From: Trichostrongylus colubriformis
Taxonomy: Eukaryota > Nematoda > Chromadorea > Rhabditida > Trichostrongylidae
Reading direction: 5' to 3'
Length of the DNA stretch: 64,000 nucleotides
Assembly (NCBI GenBank): GCA_963978905.1
Contig: OZ022256.1
Span: 58,678,646-58,742,645 of the forward strand
The notes under the pieces are model-generated. The model was not told the DNA's origin, ran no database searches, and was given only the letters and a program-made list of their open reading frames with translations. This document shows positions 497 through 64,000 of this stretch, in pieces. Each line of letters starts with the position of its first letter. Position 1 is the stretch's first letter. A program made the translations under genes and the position numbers.

Positions 497-1348
497 CAGG
501 AGAATGGGAACTAAAGCAACTGGTGAAGGCAAAAGGGTACAATCGGGAAGGATATGGGCAGTGTTCTCTTGAGAGCCAATAAACGCATCTGCGACGGCAT
601 TTAATTCACTCACTTTGAGGAAGTGTACTGCCTATCTTTGCATCCTCCAAAATCAGTGATGCGAGTAATGGGGGTGATGAAAACCCTTGGAATGAGTCAC
701 CCAAATAAAAGCTGGGGGTTCACGAAGACTACAAGATGTGGCAAGACCCCTGATGAAATTAGAGCTTCGATAAGGCATCTATTTCAACAGCTATCACTTA
801 TTTTACCTTGACCCACCTCTTTTTTGATCTGGCCCGCCCCTTTCGGAATTAATGGTGTGGGTGGGAGCCCTATCCTATGTTTCATTCCGTTTTCCTTCTT
901 TTTCGTACTACTGCGCACCTCTACTTTCATATACATTGATGATGCTTCCATATTCGGCCCGAACTGCCCCTACCACGGCCTCTAAGCTGATACAGTGTAT
1001 GACCTTGCAGCCAAGACGCATTACGTCAACCAATTAAAGCAGACTATAAACTCCTACTTTGTAGATCCAACCCACTAATTGTATCACTAATGTTGAGAAG
1101 GTAGCTTTAAGCGGCGGAATGAAACGAAGGATATGTATCAAGTAGAAATGAGGAAAAAGGAAGAACAAAATCAAAAAATAAACAGAGAACTGTATAAGAA
1201 AAGGAAAAAGGAAAAAAGGCAGATGATTTTGACTCAGCTACAAGAACAGATCGTCCAACGATCAAAGCTGCTCGCCGACTATTGGAGAAATTGTTGGCGG
1301 CCAAAAAAAAGGGCAGATTCTCTATAAAATCATGCGAGTTTTCCTCAC

Positions 1349-1501
1349 CTGGCTGGTAGACAATGGAAACCGCAACATTTCTTTCCATAGGGGATCCCGA
1401 AAGATATCCGGCAAACTTTCGATTTCTCCACTTTCCACAGATTGTCTCGCCAGGACGAGTAGAGCATACAGGTGATTGTCAATACCGTGTCCGACCAGGT
1501 T
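1349..1501 (-). CDS. cha-1: cha-1 copy A, exon 13
   Basis: It encodes [18 protein letters not shown] and ends FPLSTSQ before GTGAGG. G-GIDNHL-AL and LSTSQ are hallmark motifs of carnitine/choline acyltransferases. The terminal exon should follow about 0.9 kb to the left, but homology to copy B stops at 497. Confidence 0.92.
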
Positions 1502-4500
1502 CTAGAAATAGTTTACATTACTTGTTGAATGGCGTGTATGAGGTTTCATAGCTGCACTGTCGAAGACTCTTGCATGCCAGGGGTCTTATGGACTTTAAAC
1601 ACCGGGAGGAGGCAAATTCGGCTTACGGTGTGGGTGGCAATGGTCTGCAATTCGTTACTCTGCACATACGACGACTTACCAAGACGTCGAGTGCGAATTT
1701 ATTTACCGTTTTTAAAAATATAATCACCTTATTTTTACTCTTTCGTCTCTTATCCATTTCATTGTTTCACTTGTTTGTTGCTGTGTGCTGTTTCACAAGT
1801 TTGACATCATTATGAATGAAATCAATCTCACACTACGCTACATCAAATGATAATGGCGTAGGCCCGCCTGGAGCGTGGAGTTCGAAGTAAAACGCGTAAA
1901 GTCTCAAGAGCTCCCCGGAGGCGAATTTTACCAATGCGATTTTCCCACACATTATCTTTCCTGAATTAAAATGTTCGTTCACAAAGAGCAGATCTTGAAG
2001 TTCGCATTCATTCCTTGTTCCCCTCCCGGTGCTCTCAGTTCAGGCCTCAGCCGTTGCCACATCGCGCTCGACGCATGAGGACTTAGCGTTTAGGGCGCAT
2101 TCATGCTCTGCGGTGCCAGCACTGCGTGTCTCTGCGTATCTGCCTCGTCACCTGTGAAGGCAGCCACGTCTTGTATGAAGGTAGCCTTAGCGCTGAAGCC
2201 ACTGATTCCCAACTCACTTCTTGCGTTATTAGTGCCTGTTTCTCTGCTGCTCGACGCATCAGAACAAGACGGGTTTCCTGGAAAAAGAACGACTGATTCT
2301 GTCTCATTGGTCAACTATCCTACTCTATATCATCGGCTAAGTGTGTCTGTTGGTGTGTGTGTTTGACCGGAAATTCATATCTCGCGACGCACGGAAGATA
2401 GGACTCTGAATTTTGAAAGTGATATGGGGAGTGATGAGGGGACATTAGTGGTGAGGGAGGGGGACTGATAGCAACTGATAGAGGCTGATAAGGAGCTTCG
2501 AAAGGCGAATGGCAGGACTCAGTAAAGCTGGGATTCTGAATTTCAAAGTGATATGGGAGGTGGTAAGGGGACATCAGTAGTGAGGGAAAGGAAGTGATAG
2601 CAACTGTTAAGGGCTGATAAGAAGCCTCTAACGGCGAATACGGGAAATTGATATCTCGCGTCGCAGTAAAGCTGGGACTAAGAGTTTTACAATCGATACG
2701 ACACGACGGATGCAGAAGGACGGACGAGTTTTAGGGAAGGGATTTTGTTTCCTTTCCCTGTTTTTGCAAATTGCCTGTTTTTGCGAACCGTTCTATTGAT
2801 GATACTGATCGATTGATGCGATCAGGCTCAATTAGCATGCTCCCATGGTGATGCGCGCAGTATTGTGCGCCCGCCCAACTGGTTCTGATATGAAACTAAA
2901 TTTTAACAATTCCATTATGTCACCTTTGATTCGTTCTTTTGCATCGCTTTCACCCACTGAAGTGCTTCTCTCGTATTCGCTCGTATATTGTCCACCCTTC
3001 CAGCCCGAAATCTTCGGATTGATGCTGCTTCGTAAGTGGAGACGAGGTAGCCGTGAAGCCTACAATGCAGCTTTTGATGTTTTCATATAAAATCTCTGAA
3101 GGTACCGCTAGGGGAAAGCAGAAAATTCGAACTCGGAACGCATGCTCCTGAAAACAAAGATTCCAGTCCAGAAAAGGCGTTGTGTGGCGAAACTCGCGTT
3201 GAAAAAGCGCGGCCTAGGGTCTTATCACGATCCCGCCGCACAGCGAGTCGCGCTGCCACGAATCCGTCAGGGACATGCCTGCAGAGGTAACGTTCGCGAC
3301 CACCTAACTAAGACCCACGCTTGAGTTTCTATTTCTCGGGCTTTTCGCCGTTTCTACTATTGCACTCTCTCATATTCTCTGTTATTCCACAATGTGCCAA
3401 ATTAACCCCTTCCGTTACCTTTAACCCATTGACGACCGCGGCATTTACACGTGGGACCGCGTGGAATTTTTCCACGCACCGTGTGTGACGCGACGTTGTC
3501 TCACACGGTCCCACAGGTGCACCTTTCTGCCAAGCTATCATTTTTCACCTTTTTGCATTGTAATTAGGTTTCCAGATGTATTTATGATAATATATAGACC
3601 ACATTTGTATTAATTTCCCCTTTCAAATAAGAGTGGATGTTTTTAATGATGAAACTGAACTAAATCAAAGTATCGGTAGGCTGTTACTAGAAAGTGGATT
3701 CGAGCGACCGAATGACGTCTTACACACCGTTTGTGAGAATGAACACCACGGTGGTACACCAGGCTTTACATCGACTGAAAATTTACATATTAGGTTGTCG
3801 GAAAAAATCTTTGGTTTTTTAAAAACGTGCTTTTTCCCGCTAAGCTGCTTTCTAGGAATTTCCTCTGTACATATACATGTAGTACAAGTTCACATGCATC
3901 TATAGGTATTGTCGTCTTTCATCTTCTGGATAACCTTTTTAGGCAAAATAAATGTTAGGTGTATGCAGAATAAATGACCATAACTTCGACACAACTTTAT
4001 TTATCGAAATAAAAGCCATTCGAATCTACACACCATCACCAACGATCTGGTGAAGAAAATATGCCATCATGATAAAATTCTGGATTGCGAGAACTGGTAA
4101 AGTCAACAATGGCATTTTCAACCTGCATTGCATCGGCGAACTCCTTCTGACGTAGGTTTGCATCGAGAATCGGAAAATGTGGTAATCCGCTAGGGATATG
4201 TCTGAGGGATAAGGAGGGTAAGGGGGAGTCTCAATGCCTAACTGCATCAGTTTTTGCCTGGTGTGCTAAACAACGCAAACCCCACACTTCGCAATTTACC
4301 CGGCAAAAACTGTTGCAGTAGGATATCGAGACCTTCCTAGAGACTAGATTTACCGTGAAAATCCCAGAGAAACTTCTGAAACATGACACTTCGTTCTGCA
4401 CGATAATGCTCGCCCACATTTTGAAAAAGTGACTCACCAAAAAATTCTTGAGCTTGAGTGGGAAGTGCTGCCACATCCTCATTATAACCACGGTCAAGCC

Positions 4501-7500
4501 TCCGTTGAGGCATCCTCAACGGGGGTCGTATTTGGTTCGCTAAAAGGGGGGGGGGTGGGTTGTTTGCTGGGTTAGGCAGTGATCAACAGAATTATCAGGT
4601 TGAGGGTCTAAAGCGTAAGGGGAGAAATGATAAAACTGATTAACTGGGTTCGAACCCGAAACTATTGGGCTGAGGAATGAGTCCCCGCGGTTTTTTCAAC
4701 CCCGTTTTTTACAATGTTGCCTTCATCATTTGACGAAGCTCATATATGTTTTCGATAGAGCTTTTTTTGCTCTACAAAATGCTACTATCTGTTTTTCGAT
4801 TCCTTTAACTATCTAATATTTATGAGATTTGGAAATGAAGTAAGCTGAAGGCAAAAAACTGGCACTTGCGCACCCCATCTTTCTCCTCTGCCATCAAGAT
4901 CAAAAAATGTATGTGTGTGTGTTTCGATACAGCTCTTTCAGCTCTACAGAATGGTACTACTTTTTGTGCAAATCGCTCAATTTTTCGCTGTTTTTAAGAC
5001 TCACAAATGCAGTGCTCGCAAAAGTGTGCACTTTGGTTATCTTTTCTCCCTCTCTACTATCAAGATTGGAGAGCATGTGCATATATGCATTCGATAGAGC
5101 TTTTCTTGCTCTACAAGATGATACCACTCATCTTTTGTATCCTCTCATATTTTAGCATGTAGGAATGATTTTCCACATGTTTTTCAATTCAAAACTGCGT
5201 AATGAAAATGAATTTCATCGGCACAATGTTTTCTACTATTCGATAGAGCTCTTTTCGCTCTACAAAACAATGTATACGGTTTTTGTTCGAATTAATTTTT
5301 GACATTTTTTAGATCATTTAAAAGTCGACGAAATCGAGCATTTTTGACACCATTCGACGAAAATGCTCGATTTCGCCGACTTTTAAATGATCTAAAAAAT
5401 GTCAAAAATTTATTCGAACAAAAACCGTAAACACTTTTCTGTAGAGCGAAAAGAGCTCTATCGAATAGTAGAAAACATTGTGCCGATAAAATTCATTTTC
5501 ACCACGCAATTTTGAATTGAAAAACATGTGGAAACTCATTCCTACATGCTAAAATATGAGAGGATACAAAAGAAGAGAGGTACCATTTTGTAGAGCAAAT
5601 AAAGCTCTATCAAATGCATATATGCAGATCCTCTCCAATCTCGATGGTAGGCGAGGAAGAGGAGATAACGAAAGTGCACACTTTTGCGAGTACTGCATTT
5701 GTGAGTCTTAAAAACAGCGAAAAGTTGAGCGATTTGCATAAAAAGTAGTACCATTCTGTAGAGCTGAAAAAACTTTACAGAATGAAAAACCGCGGAGACA
5801 TATTCCTCAACCCAATAGTTTTTAATCATCATTGAAACCTCATGCATGGCGCGATTCGCAATGAAACCGGTCATCGCCAATAATCCTTTCGTTGGTCCGT
5901 TGACACCGACTACACGCGAGACACCTCCCTTCCCTATTCAACGCCATTCAGAAAAATTTTTCTTCGATAATGAAGAGACCGCGCTCCATCGTGATCGCCG
6001 CGTGATCGTCGTGATTCGCAGCCGCACCTATTCCTTTTTCGCGCACACTTTCGGCGATTCTTTCCTTCGGCGTTTTTGCTTTCTTATTGTTTTATAATGT
6101 TCTTTGGGTGTTAGGAAGTCAGGGCGAGGAGAGTGGTATGCTGCGCTCTATCCATAGTGTTAGAGACGGTATCTAACGCTATGGTTAGAGCGCAGAGAGG
6201 CTGCAGCGCAAGCCAAATTGGATTCATTTCGCAACTATATAATTTTTTCATATGTGATCTTCTTGAAGCCGTAATCGAAATGTTACCTCCCTTTTCTATC
6301 TTGGTTACGGCTTCAAGAAAAATCGCATATAAGTAAACACAGTGCCAAGACTCATGGAAAGTCGAAATTGAATACTTATATATGATTTTTATGAAGTATA
6401 ATCGAGTTTTTTCTTATCCTATGTTAGCCTAAGCCTGAGGGAAGGAGATTCCCTTTGCGTAGGCTTAATCAAAAACGCGTACGTGGTTCTTTAGTTCAGT
6501 TGAAGCAAATTTCTTGTAATATACCATAAAAGAATACTTTGTTAATTACTTATTGCATTTATTTATTATTCATTGCATAATAATGAAAACTAACAATAAC
6601 ATAAACGAAAGGGGGAGCGTATTGAGGCACCCTTTGGGGGAGGGGGGAAGTTTCTTTTAAAATTCAAAGACGACATTCAAAGAAAAATTTTTGATAATGA
6701 AGAGACATGGAGCGGTTGTTGTGCAATTTCTTCACATCAAAGCGAGATAAATTTCACGCGCATGGCATGGCAAGTTTGTCTGGAGTGGCGAAGAGTGGTA
6801 GAATAAGAAGGTGATAACTTTATTTCATAGTATGCTCTGTGTTCTATAACGAAATGATAAAATGAATTGCTTCAAAAACGAAAGAACTTTCCCGTCAACC
6901 TAATATTTATTTACCCCTTCATCTAGCTCAATAATTCAAGAATCGAGAGTTACTTTCTTGGACCATGCTTTGTGCAAAAACCTTTATGTTTGAAGTAAAC
7001 CTAATATATAAAAGATCAAGTAAATGTTTTAAAAGAGGCTTAAAATATAAGTTACAAGACCGTGACACGAAATCGTGTCACACGGTCTCACGCGGCCAAC
7101 ATGGTGTGACATGACGTCGTGTCACGCGGTCGTCAATGGGTTAATGTAAATTACTGTGCAGTAGAATGATACTGCCGGGATATTTGCACCGGAGCTCGGT
7201 CAGTCGGTGTTTCGTTCAATGTCACAATGGATTTTTGCTCCCACTTCTATTGTCACGAGATTTACTTTCCTGGAACGCTGAATAATTTCCCTGAGACTCA
7301 CTTAAAGTGTGCTAGTTGCAGCGCTAACTGTACAAAACCATCGGGGCTGAAGCCGGACTTCTTCATGAAGTCCCGTCCAAAATCGTTGAATATCAATACT
7401 TCCAGATCTAGCTCATATGTGAGTCTGAAATTCAAATGTTGTGATTCTTTATGCAATAAAATGTTCGCTATCAATCAGTTTGACGTCGGCCATACTTCAG

Positions 7501-10500
7501 GAAACGGCATTAACGGCATTTCATCTTGCCTTTCACTAACAAAACCATGAAATCGATAATAAGGGTTTGTAGGTTCATTCCTTCCTCGGTTTTTTTGAAT
7601 TCCTCGAATTAGAAAAAATACCGTGGGCTTGATGTGGGGAATGTACAGAATGTTTCGGAACATACTCGTCAAGTTCTGATGCTTGTTGTCGGAGTATCTC
7701 CATGCCATCCGCCCCAACATGCCAGGTTAAAGGATTTGGGCTTATTTCACGTTCAGCTCCACTAATCTGAAACGTTAGAATGATCCACTTTTCTATGGAA
7801 AGGTGAGTGCAGCCTTATGTCGAATATTCGCGCGACCGCGCGTGACGAGCAGCGCGGCGGATTTCTTCGCGTGTGATTGTGTTCATTTAGTATCCATAAA
7901 GTTTTACGCCCGAACTAATTAGGTTTTTTTTTGATCAGAAGTGCTATCATGTGGCAATGGTTTCTTTTGAGTTTTATGCTACTATTTTGTTCTTTTTGGG
8001 GCACAAAAGTTATTCTTCTTGGCTATTTAACTATCCACGACGTTGTTAACACACCTTTATTGGCTAACGTTTCGGTGGAATCGCCTTCTTCAGAGCCTGA
8101 AAGGATCAAGACGATTCATGACTACCCGGCCAAACACATCGTCAACCATTCGAGATCACCCAGACACCAAATAGCCATAGGATAAGCAACCCACCGCAAT
8201 AATCTGGATGCGGGAGACCAACCGGTCAGCAGCGACAGGACTCGTTGTTGCCCAACCTCACCTATGGAAAGCTGTCCTTATATAGGGTATCAATTCCCGT
8301 ATTATCATAGGACATTCTTCTCTCCGATTCATTTTTGGATGGATGAACTGAATCCAAAATGCCTTGAGGGATCTCCAGGCAGACAGTTGACGATTCTTGT
8401 GCCAACAACTGAACCCTGACCTCGAGGTCGTCTCCGTCTTTTTTTTACCTCGGTGAGCTCCCAGAGCACTTGATGTGCATGACCTGCTTTCAGCGTCAAT
8501 GTGCTCCTTTAATCTCACGTGAAGAAGCCTCGCCGTTTCGCCTATGTACTCATCCCCACATGTAATTTTAACATGTAATTTTATAGGCTACACCTGCGGT
8601 GGTGCATTCACCTTCCCTACCCGTAGGACATACCACACAATTGAGGGCCAAACTCAATCGATCGTAGAGTCGATTGTGTACGAGGCGAATGAATTTCCCT
8701 CGAATGAATTACCACCGGGTCTGTTGACTGCATTTCCACTTTTCTATCCATATGAAGTCTAAACAGTCTCGTAGCCATTGAGCGCAGCTATTTCGCATGC
8801 CATTCCAGTGATTCTTTACGCTCCTTATCTCCCATGCATACTTTCGCGGCTTTTCTAAACATGTTCCTAACAATAGCTCGCTTAGTTTGAAGGGGATGGG
8901 CTGATCGAAAATGCACAATGACATTTTTGCTGCTGGATTTTCTGTACCACTTTGTTTCTCCACGAATTTTCACTTGGATGTTTAAGAGAGGGAACCAATC
9001 TTCGTAGGGTTTTCCCCTTTCAGCTTTATGTGCTCTGTTTGCCGGCCTAGTAAGTTGAAAAACAAATTTGTCTGCTCTTATGTTTAGCAGATAACAAAAC
9101 AGTCATCAGTGCATTGGCAGTAAAACATAGGGTTTAGTTCCAGCACAGGCACTCCTATTTTGGACATGGAAGCTATTGCCAATATAGGCGCCAATCGCTG
9201 TCCCATTGCAAAGCCTCTGATCTGCGCAAATATCTCCCCGACCATCTGAAAACGCTTCAATTGATGCACTTATGTAGTAGAGCCATGAGTTGTCCTATGG
9301 AGAGCCCATGCATATTAATTTCATTACAGTGCTGGTTTAGAAGCTCGAAGATGGCTTCCATCGCGGCATTGTTGCTTATGTTTGCTTACATATAGTGCTT
9401 CTACGTCGTAAGATTCCGTCACACAGTTGCCGTTTAGTCGTAGCACGTGAAGATGATCTAACAGCATTCGGGTATTGGTGAGGTGCGATTGTATGTATTA
9501 TCGAAAAAAAAATCAGTCTCTGTTTCTTGACGATGTGTTTGGCCGGGTATTCATGAATCCTTTTAGGCGCTGAAGAAGGCGATTCCGCAGAGATGTTAGA
9601 AAACAAAGGTGTATCAGCAACCTCGTGGGTAGTTGAATAGTCAAGAAGATTAAAAGTTACGCCGAGGTTCATACAAAGCCGCACATAGAAATGACAAAAG
9701 TTATTGTTTTTAGATATGATGAGATAGACAGCTACTTTTTGAAGGAGCTCCAGCCCCTTGCGTCCTGAGACGAATTTCAACCGATCGCTATTCGTACTAT
9801 TGGCGCCGCGCGCACGACGCCGCCAAGAAAAATTCGGCGTAAGGCTACATATCACTATTGAGAGCAGAGTGCGTATGAATCAAAGAGAATACTGCAAGGT
9901 TTCTTTTCGCATCCTATAGATAGGTCCACCCCTGTATTAGAAAAAACCTTCGGAATTTCAGTTTCGAAAATCGATGTGCTATATGTGCCTTGATTGCCAG
10001 AAAGGAAACGCAGAAAATGTGGATACTCGTTTTTTCAGTCTTTCGAATTTGCAGTTTGATACTTTTAGCAAATGAAGGAACAAAAATTAAAAGTTTTGCT
10101 CGCCAACCTGAGGTATATATTACACTTTTCCGCAGTAAACTCGCAGAGAAAGGGAACGAAAGAAAAACGATAAAAAATGCTGACACGTATTTTCTGCGTT
10201 TTCTCTCGAACATTTAGGGTGGCCATTATAATGGAAATGGATCCTCGTTGAAAGGCTATAGTAGGGTAAGTAAGATTGGCTATTCTCATATCTGGGACAA
10301 GAGCGAACCGTGGCAGCGGCCAGAGCCACCGCACTGTCTATGTGATTGAACCCTTTCCAGATTCTTGTAAACAAACCCACTGTAGTTTGTTTCCGGTTCT
10401 CTCGTTCGTATCGGAGGGCACTTTCAGCCACGTGAATGAGGGCTATACCCTCATTAGGAGAGTGCTCAGTGCATATACCATTGGTGCCGTTAGTACTGAC

Positions 10501-25190: not shown

Positions 25191-25410
25191 AACTAAACCT
25201 GATAGGTTGCTGAATAAGAGCGCGTTCAACTTTCCGCTGGTAGGGCGTGGCTGTGTTCACCGGCAGCGAGGCAGAGTGGCACGGGGAAGGTGTAAAGACG
25301 ACGCAGGAAACGAGAGAGGGTGGCACAGGTGGAGAAGCAAAAAAAAACGCAGTACACGCTCTGCCGCCGGCACCGCAAAGTATGAACGTGACCTTATAAG
25401 CAGAAGCCTG

Positions 25411-25838: not shown

Positions 25839-25865
25839 CAACGCTTCTGCTCATAACTCAGCTCC

Positions 25866-30789: not shown

Positions 30790-30810
30790 TATATTGACCA
30801 ACCAGATTCC

Positions 30811-31612: not shown

Positions 31613-31865
31613 TGTAAATATAGAGTGTCTACATCTGATAACTTATCAAAATAACATAATAACATAACAAATACAAAATAACATAACAAATGCAAATAAA
31701 TAGCACTCTAAGCGATGCAACGCAAACAGACACAACAAGCCTGTCACCATAGCCTGTCACCAGGTCCATGATAACCGTCTTGTACTTTTGCTGTCGTTTC
31801 CGTCGTATTACGATCTTTTCGATTTTACCCGTATTGTCATTTTTCGATGACGTCACTTCCTATTT

Positions 31866-32760
31866 TTAGGTAACAGAATTGTACCCGTGTACTTTTTTCA
31901 GCATGAATATGACTGGTGTGTAGACAATATTCAAACCGAAGATGATGATGTTCAAACTAAGAAGCTCATGTTGCCTACGATCCAACCGGCAATAATTGGT
32001 CCGAATGCATAGGCTAACAAATAAGAAATGTCTGCAATTGAGTACACTGAGCCGTATACAGGAACACAGAAAAAAACGGAACGGAAACGGATGTCCACGG
32101 AAATCCAAGCATTGGTAGAAGCGAGGTGTCAATAAGGGCGATGCCAAAGCCCACAAAGCTCAATGGAATGATCAGCTAAAATACTGAAGAGGTGTATGTA
32201 GGACAGGGCAAAGAACGAAGTATCCTCGATTCAGGCCGAAGGAAGCGATCTCCCATGTGTGATCGGGGAAAGCTTTCAGAATTCTCACCGTGATGTACAC
32301 AACGAGTGCATGGGGGAAGAAAGCCGGCAACCAAATAACACCAGCCAGCCACACTGGTGTGTCCTGCATACTTCCTCCATCCAGTTGGTGATGGTGGACT
32401 CAAGAAATGCCAATGAAACGTTCGCCATGATTAGCGCCCCAGAGCATACGGCTATCATCGGGTCCATGAACAGGCGCCACATTGGTGTGCCTTTGATACG
32501 CTCTCCAACAACATCCACTGCTACACGACGACCGGGTTGAATCACCATGAACACGGCCAGGGCATCGGCGAGGAAGACGAATGAGAGGATCAGAAATGGT
32601 ACTGGATTGCCAGCCAACGAATATAAACGGTGGTGCGATGATACAGCCGAATGAGATGAAGGCGAGGGCTATACCGAGTGCAGCTGATCGTTCACTTTCT
32701 TCTTTGAAACGGTCGCGGCATCGCTAATCCAGAGATGTCAGCGAAAGCTGAGCCAAATCC
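31866..32760 (-). pseudogene. unc-17: unc-17 pseudogene, exon 2
   Basis: It opens [14 protein letters not shown] after GCGTTTCAG and carries the C-terminal two thirds of the transporter to a TAA at 31866. The segment 32285-32617 is the longest intact piece. The usual long acidic C-terminal tail of UNC-17 is absent. Confidence 0.88.
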
Positions 32761-33579: not shown

Positions 33580-34068
33580 TTGTAATGATCTGGCGAAGAA
33601 CGTGACACTATGGCTGTGGCCGAGAGCAAATATAGCCGTCGAACTGAACATCACCACCAAACCAGTAACCATAGGAATCTCGTAGCCGAGTCGATCAATA
33701 ATATAGCCAGAGAATGGATCGACGAATGTTGAAGAAGGGCTTTTGAGGCGGCTAGCCAGCCGAGCTCAATATCTTCATCTCTGTAGTCGATTTTTCCTCC
33801 AACAGCCTACTATAACGGTACCATTGGGCAGTTTTCTCGTCTCATTGTGATAGCGTGGAAATCTACTGAGTATGCATGAATGTCACGAAGGTATTTAGGA
33901 ACAATTGGCACAATAACCATGTACAGCAGGTTGTCGAGTAGTAGAGCCACAGAGACGATGATCAGTACAAGTTTCTTTTGATTTTGAGGTTCCTCGACCC
34001 ATTGTTTCGTGGCCGCCCGGACGGCGTCCGAATTCTATTCGATGCAGAATTGCCACGTTGAAGCCCAT
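33580..34068 (-). pseudogene. unc-17: unc-17 pseudogene, exon 1
   Basis: It covers the start codon, first membrane segment, lumenal glycosylation-type loop (YHNET and NGT still legible) and the second and third segments. It ends FFARSLQ before a GTTTGT donor. Several single-base shifts interrupt it. Confidence 0.88.
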
Positions 34069-47118: not shown

Positions 47119-47325
47119 TCAGTTCTCAAGAAGATTTCTCATATCATAAAGTGCCGATAGTATTGAATCTTTAAAAGCAGCTAGATTTGTTCGTGGATTC
47201 GATTTGAATGCAGACGGTGAAAAGATGATGGTGTCATTTTGAAGGTTATACGCGCAACCGTATCCATCACGAACCACAGCACCATAGCACATATAGCGGT
47301 TGGTAATATCGGGAGACGTAGTGAC
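47119..47325 (-). CDS. cha-1: cha-1 copy B, terminal exon with stop
   Basis: After ATTCTAG it encodes [19 protein letters not shown], then IIFSPSAF, and ends DMRNLLEN before TGA (47119-47121). This is the G-V--GYG--Y C-terminal block of choline acetyltransferase. It lies 48 bp outside the duplicated segment, and copy A has no counterpart in the window. Confidence 0.93.
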   Translation of the reverse strand, partial: VTTSPDITNRYMCYGAVVRDGYGCAYNLQNDTIIFSPSAFKSNPRTNLAAFKDSILSALYDMRNLLEN

Positions 47326-53300: not shown

Positions 53301-56300
53301 CATCGTGATCGTCGCGTCGCAGCCGCACCTACTCCTTTTTCGCGCAGATTTTTCGGCGATTCTTTCCTGTTTTTGCTTTTTTGCTGTTTTATAATGTTCT
53401 ATGGGTGTTTGGGGAGTCAGAGTGAGGGAAGTGGTATGCTGCTCTCTATCCATAGCGTTAGAGACGGTCTCTAACGCTATGGTTAGAGCGCAGAGAGGCT
53501 GCAGCGCTTGCCGAATTGGGTTCAAATTCCGCAACTATATGATTTTTATGAAGTATATTCGAGTTTTTTCTTATCCTGTGTTAGCCTCAGCCTGAGGGAA
53601 GGAGATTCCCTTTGCGTAGGCTTAGACGAAAACGCGTACGTGGTTGTTTTGTCCAGTTGAAGCAAACTTCTTGTAATATATTAGGTTGATTCATAATAAA
53701 TCGGACAAATTGACCAATTTTAATCATTGTCGTACAACTTTTTTACGACAACAGGGATTCACTTGAAATATACTCCATCTTTATCGATGACCTTCTGCCA
53801 CGGTATAGGCAGATCATGGATGCCCTTGCTCCAGAAGCCCGGAAGCTGGAGCTCGAAGAAGTTGCCAAGTGCCGCCTTGACCTCGTCGCGAGTTTTGAAG
53901 TCTTGGCCGTCCAGGTGGCGTTGGCTGTGGGAGAAAAGGTGGAAATCTGAAGGGGTCAGGTCTGGGGAGTACGGTGGGTATAGAAGTACGGTCCAACTGT
54001 ACGACAGCAGCTCGGCCTTGGTCGATCTTGCGAAGAGCGGTCTGTGGAAGTAGACACGTTGTCGTGCTGGAAGTAGACATGTGACCGCCGCCGTAGCGAA
54101 CTTTGGACATTGGCCTTCAATTCTCGTAATTGACGAACGTAGACGTCGGCGGATACTGTGGTACCTTCATCGAGCAGCTCCCAGTACTCTACGCCGTGTT
54201 CGCTCCACCAACCGCGGTTTTCGTCTTCGATGGAATAGTCGCCTGACGCAAACTTCGAATGCTACAACTACAGTGTACTTCTGCCGGGGGCATGCTCCTT
54301 GTGAACTTCTATCAGACGTCTGCCGATATCCGCGGGTTTCTGGCCAGATAGCGATATAAATAGTATGACGTTGCGGATGTGGTCTCTGGACCGCTTGAAA
54401 TCGTGCGGCATTGTGGCGGAATGAATTTACTTTGGAGTGATTATTTTGCGGTACTTTGAAGAGCTTTTCATACTCATTCCAACGGTACCTCGCGCGTCCA
54501 TTTTCGTTAATTCGTTACTGAGTTATGATCTCTAGAAATCATCACTACCATTTAACCGATTTATTATGAATCAACCTAATATAAAAGAATATTTTGTTCA
54601 TTATTTAGTGCATTTATTTATTGTTTATTGCATATTAATGAAAACTAACGATAACATAAACGAAAGAGGGGGCGTATGAGGCACCCTTTAAGGGATAGTA
54701 TATTTTGAAAATTTTCCTCAACTGGACGCCTGACTCTGATTATAGCCCTGATCTTGCTCCATCGGATCATCAACTTTTCCTTTGCCTATCTAATATGTAC
54801 CGCCATTCAAAGAAAAATTTTTGATTACGAAGAGACATGGATTGGTGGGGTGGTTGTGCAACTTCTTCAAATCAAAGCGAGATCAATTTTGCGCAGATGT
54901 GGTATAGCAAGAATGCCTGAAAGGTGGCGAAAAGTGGTAGAACAAGATGGTGATAACCTTGTTTCATAGTATGCTCTGTGTTTCGTAGTGAAGTGATACA
55001 ATGAATTGCTTCAAAAAAACGAAAGAACTTCCCCGACAACTAATATTTGTTTACCCCTTCATTAAGAAGCTCAACTATTCGAGAACCGAGGGTTATTTTC
55101 TTGGACCATTCTTTGTGGAGGAACCTTTATGTTTGAAGTAAACCTAATAAATAAAAGATCAAGCAAATGTTTTAAAAGAGGCTTAAAATATAAGTTACAA
55201 GACCGTGACACCACATAGTGTCACACGGTCCCACGCGGCCGACATGGTGTGACACGACGTCGTGTCACACGGTCGTCAATGGATTAATGTAAGTTATTGT
55301 TCAGTAGAATGATGCAGCTTTGATATTTGCGTCGGAGCTCCGTCAAATGGTGTTCCGTTCGATGTCACATCATAATTTTTTGATCGCACATCTATTGTCA
55401 CGAGAATTACTTCCCTGGAACGCTGAATAATCTCCCTGAGACTTACTTATAGTGCGCTAGTTGCAGCGCTAACTGAACAAAGCCATCGGGGCTGAAGCCG
55501 GACTTCTTCATGAAGCTCCGTCCAAAATCATTGAATATCAGTACTTCCAGATCTAGCTCATTTGTGAGTCTGAAATTTGAATGTTGTGATTTTTTATGCA
55601 AAAAATGCTCGCTATCAATCAGTTTGACGTCAGCCATACTTCAGTAAACGGCATTAACGGCATTTCATCATGTTTTTCACTACCAAAGCCATGAAATCGA
55701 TAATAAGGGTTTGTAGGTTTATTCCTTCCTCAGTTTCTTCAAATTCCTCGAATTAAGACAAATGCCGTAGGCTTGATGTGGGGAATGGACGGAATGAATC
55801 GGAACACACTCGTCAAGTTCTGATGCTTGTTGTCGGAGTATCTCGATGCCATCCGCCCCAACATGCCAGGTTAAAGGATTTGGGCTCATTTCACGTTCAG
55901 GTCGACTAATCTGAAACGTTGATAGAATGATCCACTCTTCAATGGAAAGATGAGTGCAGCCTTATGTCGAATCCTCGCGCGACCGCGCGCGACGAGCAGC
56001 GCGACGGATTTCTTCACGTGTGATTGTGCACATTTCGTACCTTTGAAGTTTTATGCCCGAACTAGTATGAGTTTTTTTGATTAGAAGTGCTATTACGTGG
56101 TAATTGCTTCTTTTGCTTTTTATGTTATTATTTTGCTCTTTTTTATTCTGCTCTTATTTTGCTCTTTTAGGGCACAAAAGTTATTCTTCTTGGCTGTTTA
56201 ACTATCCACGAGGTGGTTAAGACACCTTTATTGGCTAACGGTTCGGCGGAATCGCCTTTTTTAGGGCCTTAAAGGATCAAGGCGATCCATGACTACCCGG

Positions 56301-59300
56301 CCAAGCACATTGTCAACCCACTACAATTCGAGATCACCCTGACACCAAGTAACCATAGGATGAGCAACCCACCGCAATAATCTGGATTCCGAAGACCAAT
56401 CGGTCAGCAGCGACAGGACTGGTTGCTGCCCAACCGCACTTATGGAAGGCTATCCTCATATAGGGTATCAATTCCCGTGTTATCATAAGGCATTGTTCTC
56501 TCCGGTACATTTTTGAATAGATGAACTGAATCCAGAATGCCTCGAGGAATTTCCGCGCAAACAGTTGGGTTTCTTGTGCCAACACCTAAATCCTGATTCC
56601 GTCTCCGTCATGTTTTTTACCCCGATGGGCTCCCAGACCACTTGATGTGCATGACCTGGATTTACCGTTAATGTGATCCTTCAATCTCACATGCAGGGGC
56701 CTCGCCATTTTGCCTATGTACTTATCCCCACAACTGTCACAAGTAATTTTTTGGACTACACCTGCGCGATGGTGCAGTCACCTTCCCTACTCGTTGGACA
56801 TACCACACAATGGAGGGTCAAACATAATCGGTCGTAGAGTCGATTATGTGCGAGGCAAGGTTCAAAGACAGTGTTAGGGGTAATATGGGTGACAGGGAAT
56901 ACCAAAAGGGAGCAATCACCGAAAAATTACGGGTTTGAAAGGCCGATGTATGGCGAAATCTCCCGCAAAAGGCGCCCCAGCGGCGGAGGCGGCTCATCAT
57001 GGTAGGCCGCCTTGGTTAGGGCAGCCCGCCTCCTGGCGACTAGCTTCCCCCTGATTGGCTGGGTGAGAGGAGCCAAGGCGAGCGGCGCGGCTGGAGCGAT
57101 CGGGGCGCGCTTTCGTAAACAGAACGTCGCCTATTCTTTTATGATCAGCTGATTACCCTTTTCAGTGTTCTTGTTTTTGCTGCTCACCCGTAGAATCTGC
57201 GCGTTTTTCTTTTCCATTCTTCTTTTCTTTTTCATTAATCTTCACTCTATGTCTTCGCTGGTTTGTAGTTAAAGATGGGATGCCTTTTAAGTTTTCTGTG
57301 TTTTTGCGCATTGATTACCTGGATACGTGCCAATGGCAGAGTTGCCGGGCCACCCGCCTGTTGACGGAATGGTCGTCCACGTCGAAAATCAGTGGTAGCA
57401 AAGTGGTTCTTTTCTCAGGTTTTCGGTCATTTACTTACGTTTTTCCTTCACCTTCGTATCACTGATCGTCTCTCCCGTCATATTCGCCACTTTTTTCGCA
57501 TTTCGTCCGGTTTTTCCCTTACACTTCCTTTTAAATTTAAAAGTGGTACATCTGCAATGGCAACAGTATTTTCAGGACCCGATCTCCTCATATACTTCCT
57601 CATGGCTGTGCTTACTTCATCGGAGCGAATGGCATCACGAAAGGAATTTTCCCTGCACTGCACTGCCACTTTTGGATCCATATGAGGTCCAAGCAGTCTC
57701 GTAGCCATTGAGCGCAGCTATTTCGCATGCCGTTCCAGTGATTCTTTACGCTCCTCATCTCCCATGCACACTTTTGCGGCGGTTCTAAACATGTTCCTAA
57801 CAACAGCTCGCTTAGTTTGAAGGGGATGGGCTGATCGAAAATGCACAATGGTATTTTTGCTGATGGATTTTCTGCACCACTTTGTTGAATGCAGGTCTCC
57901 ACGAATTTTCACATGGATGTTTAAGAAAGGGAGCAAACCTTTGGAAAGTTGTTCTCGTTTCAGTTCTATGTGCTCTGTTTGCCGGTTTAGTAAATCGGAA
58001 CACGAATTCATCTGCTCTTGTGTTAAGCAGATCAAAACAGTCATCAGTGTATCGGCAGTAAAACATAGAGTTTAGTTTCCCGCACAGGCGCTTCTGCTTT
58101 GACATGAAAGCTATTGCCAATATAGGCGCCAATCGTTGTCCTATTGCAATGCCTCTGATCTGCGCAAAATATCTCCCCGACCATCTGGAAAAGCTGCGAT
58201 TGAGGCACTTATGTAGTAGAGCCAGTAGTAGAGCCATGAGTTGTCCTAAGGAGGCACATGCGTATTGATTTCTTTACAATGCTGTTTAGAGGTTCGAAGA
58301 TGGCTTCCATCGCGGCACTGTTGCTTACGTTTGCTTACATATAGTGCTTCTACGTCATGAGATTCCTTCACACAGGTGCTGTTTAGTCGTAGCACATGAA
58401 GATGATGTAGCGGCATTCGGGTAATGGCGAGGTGCGATGGTATGTATTGTCGGAAAAAAATCAGTTTCTGTTTTTTTTGACGATGTGTTTGGCCGGGTAT
58501 TCATAAATCCTTTTATGCGCTGAGGAAGGCGATTCCGCCGAGATATTAGCCAATAAAGGTGTATTAGCAACCTCGTGGATAGTAAAATAGTCAAGAAGTG
58601 TAACAAATTACGCCGAGGTTTATACAAAGCCGCACATAGAAATGACAAAAGTTATTGTTTTTAGATATGATGAGATAGACATTTCTTGAAGGAGCTCCGC
58701 CAGTCCCTTGCGTCCTGAGGCGAATTTCAACCGATAGCGGCTATTCGTACTATTGGCGCCGCGCGTGCGCCGCCGCCAAGAAAGATTCGGCGTAAGGCTA
58801 CATAACACTATAGAGAGCAGAGTGCATATGAATCAAAGAGAATACTGCAAGGTTTCTTTTCGCATCCTATAGATAGGTCCACTCCTGTACTAGAAAAAAC
58901 CTCGGAATTTCAGTTTCGAAAATCCATGTGCATTATGTGCCTTGATTGTCAGAAAGGAAACGCAGAAAATGTGGATACTCGTTTTTTCAGTCTTTCGCTA
59001 TAACCCAATTGCAGTTCGAATTTGCAGTTTGATATTTTTAGCAAACGAAGGAACAAAATTAAAATTTTCGCTCTCCAAGCTCAGGTATATATTACACTTA
59101 AGAAAAACGATAAAAAATGCTGATACGTATTTTCTGCGTTTTCTCTCAAACATTTATGGTGGGCATTGTAATGGAAATGGATCTCATACCTGACACAAAA
59201 GCGGACCGTAGCAGTGCCAGAGCCACCGCACTGTCTTTGTGATTGATCTCTTTCCAGATTTTTGTAAACAAACCCACTGTAGTTCGTTTCCGGTTCTCTC

Positions 59301-59929
59301 GCACGTATTGGAGGGCACTTTCAGCCACGTGAATGAGGACGATACCCTCAGTAGGAGAGTGCTCACTGCATATACCGTTGGTGCCGTTACTACTGACGAT
59401 CAGCTAAACACCTTGATGTAGGCTTCAGTATCGAAATAGCAAGCGCTAGTTCCTGACCTGGACGGTCGCGTCGAACCAACGATTCAAGCCATGACCGCTG
59501 CTACCACCACCGGTGAGGATATGTTTTCCCTGCTGAATGAGATTCCTCTCGTGCGACTGTGAATCAGCATCGCTATTCTGAGCAGAAGCTCCTTTCGTCT
59601 CGTCGTCGTCCAAGCAGACGACGAACAAAGCATCACGGGCCCAAGTGAGCGAAATGCTATTCGTTTCAACTAAATAGGCATGAATTTCACAATTTTCGAT
59701 CCAAGTGCCGACTCATTGAGAAAAATTCATTCCGAAAGGCATCGTACCCACCCTCCTGCATAGCACTCCAGAAGCGCGCCGCTCTATCACGATTACCAAC
59801 TCCTGCAGCACCAACAGCTACGGCAAGTCCTTTCCGTGCTTCAGACATCCGTAATACTTGCCGTAATTGGAAGAAAATATCGGCGAACGGTAGCAGATTG
59901 CCGTCTACCCGTGTATGCACCACAAACGC
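47119..59929 (-). CDS. cha-1: Choline acetyltransferase, copy B (last nine exons with stop)
   Basis: Nine exons run 59929-59713, 59669-59458, 59403-59278, 55910-55810, 55569-55447, 50107-49972, 49886-49827, 48383-48231 and 47325-47119. All junctions are GT-AG, all phases agree, exon lengths match copy A and there are no internal stops. Together they encode 444 residues up to the stop. The catalytic histidine motif reads CSEHS and the exon-11 equivalent has the usual YESAS. The five N-terminal exons seen in copy A should lie beyond position 64000. With the 3' end and polyadenylation signal present, this is the better candidate for the functional gene. Introns carry the same Penelope-like and TTAA-flanked elements as copy A, plus a mariner. 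Confidence 0.92.
48231..48383 (-). CDS. cha-1: cha-1 copy B, exon 13 equivalent
   Basis: It encodes [18 protein letters not shown] and ends FPLSTSQ. It differs from copy A at five of 51 residues. Confidence 0.93.
48928..49118. repeat. Palindromic MITE with G-run and C-run ends
   Basis: The ends GGTCAAATTAAGTCGG plus a run of G, and their complement with a run of C, fold onto each other. The interior arms contain AGCCTAAGCC and CTTCGACG, like the element at 46001. It lies in a stretch (48728-49437) missing from copy A. Confidence 0.75.
49827..49886 (-). CDS. cha-1: cha-1 copy B, exon 12 equivalent
   Basis: This 60-nt exon encodes [13 protein letters not shown] at its end, between TTTTCAG and GTGAGT. 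Confidence 0.9.
49972..50107 (-). CDS. cha-1: cha-1 copy B, exon 11 equivalent
   Basis: It encodes [20 protein letters not shown] and [13 protein letters not shown], with the conserved YESAS serine intact. Confidence 0.93.
51045..51705. repeat. Palindrome derived from a second mariner
   Basis: Arms 51045-51335 and 51345-51705 are inverted copies of a mariner 3' region. The right arm reads LGIETLP, then [14 protein letters not shown] and [18 protein letters not shown], the usual mariner C-terminus. Copy A (3950-4330) keeps only the left arm and the start of the right. Confidence 0.75.
53445..53508. repeat. Strong hairpin, copy B
   Basis: CCATAGCGTTAGAGAC is followed at once by its complement, with further pairing of the flanks. 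The same hairpin, slightly degraded, is at 6150-6215 in copy A. Confidence 0.7.
53681..54579 (-). mobile_element. mariner with perfect 24-bp inverted repeats
   Basis: Positions 53681-53704 and 54556-54579 are exact inverted complements, and TA flanks both sides. The site is empty in copy A near 6525. Minus-strand fragments of transposase are frameshifted, and at 899 bp the element is shorter than a full mariner. The perfect ends suggest the most recent insertion here. Confidence 0.9.
55447..55569 (-). CDS. cha-1: cha-1 copy B, exon 10 equivalent
   Basis: It encodes [16 protein letters not shown] and [15 protein letters not shown], bounded by ATTTCAG and GTAAGT. Confidence 0.92.
55810..55910 (-). 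CDS. cha-1: cha-1 copy B, exon 9 equivalent
   Basis: It encodes [20 protein letters not shown] and ends ASELD plus two bases of the next codon before GTGTGT. Confidence 0.88.
56186..58605 (-). mobile_element. Penelope-like element with GIY-YIG endonuclease, copy B
   Basis: It holds the counterpart of 8020-9650 with a better RT ([26 protein letters not shown]; 58237-57812), a linker with [10 protein letters not shown] and the endonuclease ([20 protein letters not shown] near 56730). The usual ETGR-type motif reads KMAR here. Inverted outer repeats lie at 56190-56320 and 58470-58605. About 700 bp at 56858-57640 are not in copy A. Confidence 0.83.
56858..57480. other. Copy B-only stretch within the Penelope-like element
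   Basis: Copy A has about 90 unrelated bases here. The stretch is GC-rich around 56960-57110 and T-rich after 57120. It interrupts the linker between reverse transcriptase and endonuclease, so it may be an insertion in B, though a deletion in A is also possible. No domain is recognised. Confidence 0.5.
59278..59403 (-). CDS. cha-1: cha-1 copy B, exon 8 equivalent with the catalytic histidine
   Basis: It encodes [20 protein letters not shown] and HVAESALQY; the histidine of SEHS is the family's catalytic base. The donor is GTGGGT as in copy A. Confidence 0.9.
59458..59669 (-). CDS. cha-1: cha-1 copy B, exon 7 equivalent
   Basis: It contains [16 protein letters not shown] and [13 protein letters not shown], and ends at GTCAGG. 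Confidence 0.92.
59713..59929 (-). CDS. cha-1: cha-1 copy B, exon 6 equivalent
   Basis: It starts [15 protein letters not shown] and is followed by a 43-bp intron (59670-59712). Length and phase equal copy A. Confidence 0.9.
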
Positions 59930-60899
59930 CTGAAATGACGCCGTAAATTAACTTGATTCTCCATATTCTCCATAAGAATTTATTTTCTCATATTCTCATA
60001 TTTATATTCACCAAGTGAGCTTCGCGATCCACATCGCGTTATGGGGTACCGACAAGAGGCCGGCTATGGGCACAATGATGTAACAGAAATTTCACAGCAA
60101 CGTGGTTTGGCGGCAATCAATAGATTTTACATTTGTGCTGAGGGGTAGTCCATTAACAGCCTCCACTTCAAAGGCTCATCAAAGCGATGCAGTAGGTATG
60201 CAATAAGCAATGTATGTGATATGCAGTATGCAATATATGTGATATGCATGCAATAAGCTCTACAGAATGTGAGGCTCTGCAATTGTCTCCATCCACTGGT
60301 GTGGTCCATCACATTGCCCGGCCCTTCGTACGAAAACCGATAATTACGACCCATGGCACATGATGCTGCAGTTTTTCATCTTCTGCGACTGTAATCATTC
60401 AGTTCCCATTACTTGTTTTCAGCTCTTTGCTTTGAGATCTATGATTTCGATCGATGTCGACCGATAGACATCATCAGAGTTCTGCAAGGGCGACACTCAC
60501 TGGTGTGGCTCGCTGATCATTCTTCTATGAGGGTATTCACTCAGTGGTATGGTCCATAGGCCGTTTCCAGCCTTTCGCATAAAAACCATTTTTTCAATCA
60601 ATATCCCGATGACGCTCCGTCTTCCGTGATCAGTTGACATTTTTGTCACTCTGGCAGCTTCGAATTGCTTCAGCTTTCTTCGGCGCTCTAGACCGCTCTG
60701 AAACGGTGTTAAATTTTTATGAGTGGGCACGGTCTTGTTGATTGCACGTTCCGCACATTGTAGACCGGCCTCCACCTACTCCAATAACGTGCAACACCGC
60801 CTAGATATCAGTGATCTCTATCGATTTTTTCGCAGTCTCTGAGCTGCTCCTGAGACAACTTATAAACGCTCGTAGTAAACACCACATAAGTTGAGCGTG

Positions 60900-61373
60900 C
60901 TCCGCCAACTGAAGGCGGGTATTCTTCATTTGCTACGAACACCCTTGACTCATTTTAGCCTACCTTTTCCCGACTCCTGAGCTTTTTTGGAAGGAATTAC
61001 AGCAAATTATGATTTTTCATCTGAACACCAAATATTTCACTCACAGTGTGGGAGTCTGAGATGATCCATATGCTGCCTGTTCATCTCTCAGCAAGACCCC
61101 CCCCCCCCCCGCAAGTCTAACTCGAACTGACTTCTCCGCTTATTCTTCAGGTAGTACTGAGTTTCGGGTGCACCGACACAACATGGCACACACACCAAAC
61201 TCCTGGTTCATATATAGGTCATGATGAATTTTCATCTACTACATACACCATTAACTCATTGCTCACCTTATCCCGATTCCTGGGCTCTTTTGGAACAAAT
61301 CAAAGAATTTTGCATCTAAACACTGAACGTTTTAACGCAGACCCCGTCCACGTCCACAGTGGGCGGAGTCTGA
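60900..61373. repeat. Satellite-like unit, copy B, left of the BEL/Pao insertion
   Basis: It matches 11950-12458, including CAAACTCCTGGTTCATATATAGG near 61198. A C-run interrupts it at 61098-61110. Confidence 0.75.
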
Positions 61374-61838
61374 TATTGCGGATATTCCGCGATTTTTTCG
61401 TAGTTTCTTATGTAAACATTGTTTTCAGCTGATATAGCTACGAGGAATTTCTCACGCTGCTGCAAGTTGTTTTGTTTCAGCTTTCGCCTTATCGGCCGTA
61501 CGGTCGCGGAGGCGGATGGAACTCGCGTACAAAAGGGCGATGACATTTTCATCAGCTCATTCGTCGTCGTAACGGTAAGCGCTGCGCGTCACTAATTCAT
61601 TTTATTTATTTGTTTTTCATGTTTTTTATGTGTTGGTCATTTCATAACTGTTTTCGTGCTTTAATTCTTTGTTGTTCATCACATTTCTCTTTTTGCGCCA
61701 TTTTCAGTCATTTTGTTTACTCATTGTTCTTGTTTAATTACCCAAGTTTGAGTCATCAAAGCGCTGTTCGTGTACTGTGGCACCGAAAGTGGCAAGGATA
61801 CAGACAAGCAATCCACTGAACCACCGAGATCGAATTTA
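61374..61838 (+). repeat. 5' LTR of the BEL/Pao element
   Basis: It runs from TATTGCGG to CGAATTTA. Its second half (61621-61838) matches the 3' remnant at 63060-63261. The termini are not the common TG...CA. Confidence 0.8.
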
Positions 61839-62036
61839 TGGTGCATTGTCTATCGGACCAAGAGTAAAGGCGGTACGATTTTTCCATTAATCCTTTTCTA
61901 CATTGGTTTCGTCGGAGAGGCGCAGAGCAAGAGGACAGCGCTTGGTGAGGTCGGATTTTTTTTGACGAAGCTTCAACATTTCATTTTTTGGGTGAATACT
62001 TTCGAGTTTCTTTCGAATTTTTCACTTTTTACAAAT

Positions 62037-63053
62037 ATGTCGGGACCAGCATTCACAAAGTCCCAGATAGCCCTTTTGCCTCGGTCTTGCAATAATTTGG
62101 AGCGCGTTTTTAAAGATAGTGAGCGGGTCATAAAATCAGAACCAGGACTTCAGAGTGACATTGCCATATCAGCGAAAGCGCAAGCGGTAGCGCTCCAGCT
62201 GAATTCTTGCGCAAAATTGGTTCTCGAAGCGCTGAGCTCCTTTACGGCAATGTGTGACTCAATGGTGACTCATTCACGGCGAAACAGGAGAAGCAAGTGG
62301 ACGATTATGTGACGAGGGCACACAACGCAATCGATCTTGCGCAAACAACCGCCATACAATTAGAGTGCAACCGTACGAGCGCCCGAGACCATTAGCAAGC
62401 GCCAGCAAGCTTACATACAGGGCGCGACACCAGGAGAGGTAGGAATTGCGCAAAAATCGTTGCCACCTATTCCCGTACCTTCATTGAACGGTAGACTTTG
62501 GGAATTTCAAAACTTTTGGACTCTCTTCGTGGCGAACGTCCATAATCAACCACTGAGCGAGCTGCGAAAATTCAACTATTTATTGAGAGCGCTGCAGGGA
62601 GAAGCTCGCGAGACCGTGCGCCGCTTTCCTGTCACGGAAGACAATTACGACCATGCCGTCGACCTTTTGTGTAAAAAAATATGGCGACGAAACTAAATTC
62701 GTTACGTATCTGCAGGGGCCCTCAGATAGGGCCAACGCTAACAAGCCAACGATAGCAGCGCAACTTCAGCTCCAGGAAATTATAATCCCAATTATTACGC
62801 AGCTCAAAGCGAGAAGCATACTAGCCGATGGCTCATTTCTAGTGCAAAAGGTGCTTTCAAAATTTTCGGTTGATTTCCAGAGAAAAGTTCTCCAGCGAAG
62901 GGTGAACCCATCGTTGGGGGAAATGCGTGGGTGATGGAAAACAACCTGGCGGACCTTGACGTAATCATATCGATGGAAGAGAAAATAGACGACATGGTGC
63001 GCAGCAAAGCTGAGGAAAGTGTCGCAGTTTCTCGGGAAAATAAGCGTCCTAAA
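62037..63053 (+). pseudogene. BEL/Pao gag (DUF1759-type), frameshifted
   Basis: The frame starts MSGPAFTKSQ at 62037 and shifts near 62260, where the next frame continues DSFTAKQEKQVDDYVTRAHN. A second shift leads into PPIPVPSLNG, FQNFWTLFVANVHNQPLSEL and KFNYLLRALQGEARETV. That block (L--F-G----W--FW--F---VH--PL----KFNYL---L-GEA) is the signature of the Pao gag-type DUF1759 domain. No zinc knuckle or protease follows. Confidence 0.85.
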
Positions 63054-63059
63054 CCTTTT

Positions 63060-63261
63060 GTTTTTTATGTATTACTCATCTCATAACTCTTTTCATGGTG
63101 CTTTGATTCTTTGTTGTTCATCGCATTTCCTTTTTTGCGCTAATTTTAGTTATTGCTTAATCACTCAAGTTTGAGTCGTCAAAGCGCTGTTCGTGTACTG
63201 TGGCACCGAAAGTGGCAAGGGTACAGAGAAGCAATCCACTGAACCACTGAGAGCGAATTTA
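63060..63261 (+). repeat. 3' LTR remnant of the BEL/Pao element
   Basis: It matches 61621-61838 and ends at the same CGAATTTA. About 245 bp of the LTR start is missing because the internal deletion runs into it. Confidence 0.82.
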
Positions 63262-63266
63262 TCTGA

Positions 63267-64000
63267 CATGGTCCAGTAAAGTAGGGTGCAGTGAAGACAT
63301 CTTCTGCACGAGAACCAATATTTTCAATCAGTATCGATCAGTGATGCATGATCTTGTTGAATTTCAACTTTGTGAGGGTACCGATCAAAAATATAGTCCT
63401 TGAGCCGTTCCCAGTTTTCTGCACAGAAACCGATATTTTCAATCAACGTCGTAGCGAAGGCTCCGCCTAAGTGGTCATTTGGCATTATTGCCACCTGAGC
63501 TGTTACACAATACTTCGGTTTTTACCCGCTTCCTAGATCGCTCTAGAGGAGAATTATGTTTCATGTGTGATTTCGATTGCCTGCTCCGCCCATTGTGGGC
63601 GGGTCGCCATTCACTTCAGATATGCTGAAAACAGCCCAGATCTCCTTGACCTCCATCGATTTTTCCTCAGTCTCTACACTGCTTTGGAGCCGGGTTTTAA
63701 ACATTTGTGGTTGGCACCGCCCACTTGGAGCACGCTGCGCCAATCAAAGGTGGGTCTCCCTCGATTGCTACATATACACGGATCTCATCCTAGTCCACCT
63801 TCTCCCGATGTCTGGGCAATTTTGAGACGACTTACAGGATTTTGGCACTGACCCGAGGACAATGCAGCCTACGCCCCGCCTACTGTGGGCGGAGGACGTG
63901 CGCGCTCTGTACGTCTTGGACCATGACCCACCCAGCCGAAACTTGACCTGACCTCCCCACTGTTTTTCTGGTAGAACCAAGAAGCGAGCGGACAGACAAG
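63267..64000. repeat. Satellite-like units, copy B, right of the BEL/Pao insertion
   Basis: It resumes the match to copy A at about 12459 and continues to 13075 at the window end. A segment around 63290-63460 repeats parts of the unit that copy A has only once. Confidence 0.75.

Follow-up and report, generated by a model that had tools for sequence, protein, structure and literature searches.

The cholinergic gene locus of the nematode Trichostrongylus colubriformis, consisting of the choline acetyltransferase gene cha-1 (ChAT) and the vesicular acetylcholine transporter gene unc-17 (VAChT), has almost certainly been amplified to six units in which ChAT was retained and VAChT was lost. The explanation as a whole, a six-unit tandem amplification with ChAT kept and unc-17 lost, has in our estimate a probability of about 85%. 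The window, i.e., the whole stretch of 64,000 nucleotides that was analysed, is C1:58,678,646-58,742,645 of a 330.9-Mb, 52-contig assembly, and 290 kb was assembled from it and flanking stretches for the analysis of the array. Matches to the acyltransferase family PF00755 in the same assembly place six ChAT genes in a single orientation at 58.566-58.776 Mb of contig C1. These form an array of six head-to-tail units of about 210 kb (209.8 kb measured from copy 1 exon 2 to the copy 6 stop codon), with exon 2-to-exon 2 spacings of 26.9, 46.9, 40.6, 33.8, and 48.3 kb along the units. The remaining PF00755 matches form six separate clusters, none of which, as we read the match list, is an array like that of ChAT. 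A single run of 200 N lies within the 290 kb, between units 1 and 2, and units 2-6 are gapless. The window contains two of the ChAT genes, copy B (unit 2) and copy A (unit 3).

The ChAT genes of the array

An earlier note on this DNA had described two same-orientation ChAT copies in duplicated segments with identical exon lengths and phases, and both descriptions hold. Self-BLAST aligned segments A and B in 19 pieces, one of them short and overlapping others, with 87.0% identity across 10,620 columns. In a frame-by-frame Pfam scan, PF00755 was matched in minus-strand frames of both copies, and no PF00755 match was obtained on the plus strand of 1-9999. Exons were derived from spliced protein-to-DNA alignment, guided by human ChAT and then by nematode database ChATs. 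Exons 7-14 are 178, 212, 126, 101, 123, 136, 60, and 153 nt in A and B alike (8 of 8 equal, phases the same), the length of exon 14 in this comparison being ended at a GT donor found in both copies. In all six copies, exons 2-15 measure 192, 119, 54, 87, 88, 178, 212, 126, 101, 123, 136, 60, 153, and 207 nt, and all 12 models (six copies with two guides each; 1,836 coding nt per copy) are free of frameshifts and internal stops. The features below are given by position in the window, and exons were placed by spliced alignment unless stated otherwise.

495..13075, minus strand, duplicated segment A: exons 7-14 of ChAT copy 3 with introns (self-BLAST)
47372..63998, minus strand, duplicated segment B: matching part of ChAT copy 2, whose gene continues past the window (self-BLAST; continuation in the flank)
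22955..23146, minus strand, copy A exon 2
22780..22898, minus strand, copy A exon 3
22432..22485, minus strand, copy A exon 4
15954..16040, minus strand, copy A exon 5
15808..15895, minus strand, copy A exon 6
10857..11034, minus strand, copy A exon 7
10562..10773, minus strand, copy A exon 8
10381..10506, minus strand, copy A exon 9 (catalytic His)
7666..7766, minus strand, copy A exon 10
7302..7424, minus strand, copy A exon 11
2924..3059, minus strand, copy A exon 12 (VDN motif)
2218..2277, minus strand, copy A exon 13
1349..1501, minus strand, copy A exon 14 (STS motif)
window -1110 to -904, minus strand, copy A exon 15, outside the window (flanking sequence)
window 66,528-70,080, minus strand, copy B exons 2-6, outside the window (flanking sequence)
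59752..59929, minus strand, copy B exon 7
59458..59669, minus strand, copy B exon 8
59278..59403, minus strand, copy B exon 9 (catalytic His)
55810..55910, minus strand, copy B exon 10
55447..55569, minus strand, copy B exon 11
49972..50107, minus strand, copy B exon 12 (VDN motif)
49827..49886, minus strand, copy B exon 13
48231..48383, minus strand, copy B exon 14 (STS motif)
47119..47325, minus strand, copy B exon 15 with the stop codon

The tandem duplication proposed in the note was right as to duplication but not as to its extent, as A and B are not merely a pair: two of six copies fell inside the window. Likewise, its statement that the cholinergic locus is present twice applies to ChAT only, since the one VAChT identified there is a pseudogene, which the note does not mention. 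Both ChAT genes overrun the window. A 3' truncation of copy A was rejected because exon 15 was found in the flank, and an origin of the copies as retrocopies was rejected because introns are retained.

A query composed of the exons of A and the last exon of B scored 277 bits against solved ChAT structures in the PDB versus 213 bits against CrAT, and its top database matches are nematode ChATs, the best being the T. colubriformis ChAT P0001 at 85%. In human ChAT, His324 is catalytic and Tyr552 binds choline (PMC13255071), and the human ChAT sequence used here for residue numbering reproduces the spacing of these two residues. His324 is kept in 6 of 6 copies and Tyr552 in five, including A and B, with Phe in its place in copy 6. 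Cronin reportedly identified rat V459, D460, N461, and N514 as the residues that set ChAT apart from CrAT, and we take VDN at human 449-451 together with Asn504 to be the determinants of ChAT versus CrAT. Copy 1, B, and A have both VDN and Asn504, whereas copies 4-6 have Asn504 but read VDI in place of VDN; the VDN Asn is the sole position where copies 4, 5, and 6 agree together against 1, B, and A. The STS motif is kept in A and B and is VTS, ITS, and VAS in copies 4, 5, and 6, respectively. Differences from copy 1 that are common to all five extra copies number 24 amino acids. The acyltransferase domain, the nearer match to ChAT, and the retained His, Tyr, and VDN place the predicted A and B proteins in the ChAT branch of PF00755.

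State of unc-17 and the start exons

The unc-17 of the window belongs to unit 3 and sits in the interval that separates the 3' end of B from the start of A at its 5' side. Its two exons were aligned to the Haemonchus UNC-17 protein P0085.

33580..34068, minus strand, unc-17 (VAChT) pseudogene, first exon
31776..32760, minus strand, unc-17 (VAChT) pseudogene, second exon

This alignment contains 11 frameshifts and 3 in-frame stops, and the gene is therefore a pseudogene, with its intron retained; under the same procedure, ChAT A and B need 0 frameshifts. The state of unc-17 differs from unit to unit. Upstream of copy 1 it is intact, with two exons, 524 residues, and no lesions. Between copies 1 and 2, where it adjoins the assembly gap, most of the first exon is gone and there are 1 frameshift and 3 stops, and between copies 5 and 6 there are 4 frameshifts and 3 stops. 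Between copies 3 and 4 the alignment score of 84 is at noise level, and between copies 4 and 5 the score is 106, with a single 18-residue match to the tail. As a control, the reversed UNC-17 protein was aligned to the same seven intervals and scored 59-126, and the called unc-17 copies score 1555-2532. An intact VAChT just upstream of ChAT on the same strand is present in unit 1 only, i.e., in one of six units. A genome-wide search with P0085, in which match counts are lower bounds, found no unc-17 beyond the array; three weaker matches on contig C8, at 41-59% identity, may be, as a guess, a related transporter.

From the A-B noncoding indel rate, 12.7 frameshifts are expected for neutral sequence since the A-B split. 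The similar count of 11 in the relic beside A suggests that this unc-17 died at about the time of that split, and the relics of units 2 and 6, with far fewer frameshifts (1 and 4), would have died later or been partly converted.

Units 4 and 5 carry an intact Haemonchus-like first exon of ChAT, and in unit 1 this exon is found immediately 3' of unc-17. The P0001 model begins at another exon, where an ATG is present in copy 6 and absent in copies 2-5. That exon was rejected as the ancestral start, because it is the Haemonchus-like first exon that sits 3' of unc-17 and because the approximately 130 nt that copies 2-6 carry there are absent from copy 1. As their frames are constrained, A and B are probably translated.

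Divergence, history, and competing explanations

The synonymous divergence (dS) between copy 1 and copies 2-6 is 0.28-0.30 (up to 0.302), with a ratio of nonsynonymous to synonymous divergence (omega) of 0.15-0.22. Among copies 2-6, dS is 0.085-0.12, except for copies 4 and 5 at 0.039, and omega ranges from 0.31 (B-A) to 0.71 (4-5), the latter not below 1 (P 0.26). Copies A and B are under purifying selection. Over their 14 exons, dS is 0.118, the nonsynonymous divergence (dN) is 0.036, and omega is 0.31, which is below 1 with P 1.4e-7; noncoding divergence of 0.113 equals dS (0.112 for exons 7-14 and 0.118 for exons 2-15). At the noncoding rate (177 gap openings in 9,150 columns), 21 gaps would be expected in their 1,089 shared coding nt, and none occurs (Poisson P 7e-10). 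Private changes have an omega of about 0.10 in copy 1, versus 0.27 (P 0.007) for B and 0.25 (P 0.0014) for A. In local alignments of all 15 pairs, 0-6 coding gaps are seen (0 in 7 pairs, 2-6 in 8 pairs) versus 4-70 expected. The nonzero counts were taken as artefacts of local alignment, because exon lengths are equal and the ungapped exons are at least 79% identical; in this ungapped check at least 18 matches occur per 30-nt window throughout, although short compensating indels could escape it.

In the tree of coding sequences (CDS), copy 1 stands outside, copies 4 and 5 are joined (100%), copy 6 joins this pair (97%), and A follows next with weak support (61%). Copies 4 and 5 (C1:58605197-58670512) differ at 150 of 13,071 intron sites (1.15%; 0.29% in intron 6), 54 of 1,836 coding sites (2.94%), and 371 of 6,603 sites of the 3' flank (5.6%), the coding difference exceeding that of introns with a Fisher P of 3.5e-8. 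Positive selection in this pair was rejected because synonymous changes are raised too and the 3' flank has also diverged. The mosaic suggests a recent homogenisation of introns by gene conversion, which fits better than diversifying selection.

A protein model from another T. colubriformis assembly bears on the array as well. This gene model, the protein P0018 (GCK32_009221), lies on a single 59.5-kb contig. Its core (residues 54-492) contains four exact blocks of copy 1 that account for 413 of 439 residues, the other 26 being unmatched to copy 1 and apparently mis-spliced. A second ChAT N-terminus makes up the C-terminal tail of P0018, in which a 104-residue exact block of copy 5 is followed by residues that are apparently intron read-through. 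P0018 seems to be a chimeric annotation spanning two array units, copy 1 being fused to the N-terminal part of a copy-5-type gene, and, at the level of a protein model, it lends independent support to tandem paralogy. P0001 is closest to copy 6, with 24 differences in 611 residues versus 68-75 for the other copies, and P0203 is likewise closest to copy 6 (99.1%). For B, A, and copy 4, the annotated T. colubriformis proteins yielded no exact match. From these comparisons, the source of the window is T. colubriformis or a very close relative.

According to the history that we propose, repeated unequal exchange would have multiplied the unc-17 and cha-1 locus, and gene conversion would have partly homogenised the array. 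Unit 1, with its intact unc-17 and canonical ChAT, would be the working neuronal locus; units 2-6 kept the ChAT frame and lost unc-17, the state of loss differing from unit to unit. The extra ChATs may be expressed and may add synthesis of acetylcholine (or a related ester) without vesicular loading, with copies 4-6 possibly drifting or shifting in substrate choice. This functional part, the VAChT-independent synthesis by extra ChATs, is put forward tentatively, as the likeliest use of the extra copies but at somewhat less than even odds. A more specific version, which we consider rather unlikely, is that all five extra ChATs act independently of VAChT, were recruited to roles outside neurons, and produce acetylcholine (B and A) or another ester (copies 4-6) for the worm, a gut parasite, to release or metabolise. 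Another ester is suggested for copies 4-6 because of their altered STS motif and choline-recognition Asn, to which copy 6 adds a change at Tyr552. T. colubriformis has been cited as secreting acetylcholinesterase (PMC4031386), which gives only plausibility to cholinergic chemistry at the worm surface.

The extra copies might alternatively serve dosage, that is, more neuronal acetylcholine synthesis of the same kind, as would agree with the retention of His324, Tyr552, VDN, and STS in B and A and with the preserved order of an unc-17 copy followed by cha-1. The 24 amino-acid differences from copy 1 shared by all five extra copies, the changed VDN and STS of copies 4-6, and the changed Tyr552 of copy 6 argue against it, and dosage alone leaves the repeated loss of only unc-17 unexplained. 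We regard dosage as a fairly improbable account.

Several observations weigh against a six-unit amplification with maintained ChATs. The join of units 1 and 2 crosses the scaffold gap, and copies 4 and 5 are so close in their introns that one of them could be a haplotypic duplicate. On the P0018 contig, copy 1 adjoins the copy-5 type, an order unlike that of this array, which may reflect either fewer units in that strain or a misassembly. The private-change omega of copies 4, 5, and 6 is 0.50, 0.35, and 0.43, respectively, none significantly below 1. The Haemonchus-like first exon of B has a frameshifting deletion and a stop before the donor (an alignment read by eye), no homologue of this exon was found in A or copy 6, and the exon where the annotated P0001 begins has no ATG in A or B. 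The omega values of copies 4-6 and the missing or frameshifted ancestral first exons would also suit a reading in which the array is real and units 2-6 are decaying bystanders, unit 1 alone being of importance. To these can be added the broken, vestigial, or absent unc-17 of 5 of 5 extra units, the pairwise omega of up to 0.71 in copies 4-5, and the altered STS motif of copies 4-6. This reading is unlikely, however, as 5 x 1,836 coding nt carry 0 frameshifts or internal stops where noncoding gap rates predict 24-39 coding indels in 9 of 10 pairs of copies 2-6 (4.2 for 4-5). The private-change omega of B and A is low, and beside A an unc-17 relic has accumulated frameshifts near the neutral expectation.

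The alternative raised in the earlier note, that A and B are two diverged haplotypes of a single locus left uncollapsed in the scaffold, is very unlikely and was rejected. Such haplotypes have precedents, in that the first Teladorsagia circumcincta assembly is reported to have had 66% duplicated BUSCOs before purging (PMC11801625) and Heligmosomoides to have hyper-divergent haplotypes (PMC10682056); the first protein tree also pairs A with B (82%), a grouping that the CDS tree does not recover. Against it, more than two in-line copies occur at several distances: six units with dS of 0.039-0.302 fall into three distance classes, gapless across units 2-6, and their unc-17 genes have decayed in unit-specific ways. 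In P0018, from another assembly, copy 1 is joined to a copy-5-type start within a single contig, and the separate clusters of other PF00755 matches include no array of this kind.

Mobile elements and comparison with known systems

A mobile element interrupts one of the duplicated segments.

53681..54580, minus strand, mariner-type insertion in B, absent from A (self-BLAST, Pfam Transposase_1)

This element occupies a TA site within intron 11 of B. As the corresponding TA site of A is empty (near 6523-6526), it probably arrived after the A-B separation. A second copy of it, 82% alike, is located at 24315-25189. Between B and the unc-17 relic there is a further mariner transposase fragment (PF01359), at approximately 37101-37232 on the minus strand. 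Intron 9 of both copies contains minus-strand open reading frames (ORFs), at approximately 8000-9900 and 56180-58830. By eye we take them to resemble a Penelope-type element (GIY-YIG and reverse transcriptase motifs), an unconfirmed likeness, Pfam at 1e-3 having reported none; such a candidate element would predate the A-B split. Intron 4 measures 6.4 kb in A versus 2.6 kb in B, and at 16870-21365 in that of A, ORFs on both strands resemble, by eye, a reverse transcriptase of the type without long terminal repeats (non-LTR). Between A and the unc-17 relic, calls of tRNA-Ser(GGA) and tRNA-Phe(GAA), at 25409-25483 and 25766-25840 in opposite orientation, sit in an 83% inverted repeat.

Among the parasites of sheep, T. 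colubriformis is an important one (PMC12370191), and cholinergic agonists serve as anthelmintics (PMC5931475); for these reasons identification of the neuronal gene among the six matters for drug, RNA interference (RNAi), and genetic work. The fused P0018 suggests, as a warning, that draft annotation can collapse the locus or render it chimeric. A search of open-licence papers gave no title on nematode ChAT duplication among the matches listed.

Three known systems can be compared with the array. The ChAT of Haemonchus contortus, P0002, is 87.4% identical to copy 1 and 79-82% identical to copies 2-6, and as a guide it recovers the same exons 2-15 in the array. Unlike the array, H. contortus has one ChAT gene among the matches listed, with models P0002 and P0004 that are 93% alike, a comparison of protein models only. 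The levamisole-sensitive acetylcholine receptor genes of parasitic nematodes also show duplication and divergence in cholinergic signalling (PMC4945070), whereas here it is the transmitter-making enzyme that is duplicated, with a paired loss of the partner gene of which the excerpt of that paper makes no mention for the receptors. The third system is the cholinergic gene locus itself, unc-17/cha-1 of C. elegans and VAChT/ChAT of insects and mammals, whose nested arrangement is described as conserved in nematode, Drosophila, and mammals (PMC3053374). The two genes, their common strand, and the upstream position of VAChT are the same, and unit 1 is intact; in contrast to the locus as described there, the array has six units, five of them without a working VAChT. 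With the synthetic half of the locus multiplied six-fold and the vesicular half dead in each extra unit, the coupling of ChAT and VAChT is broken in nature, and the array offers a way to test whether acetylcholine synthesised independently of VAChT serves a separate purpose.

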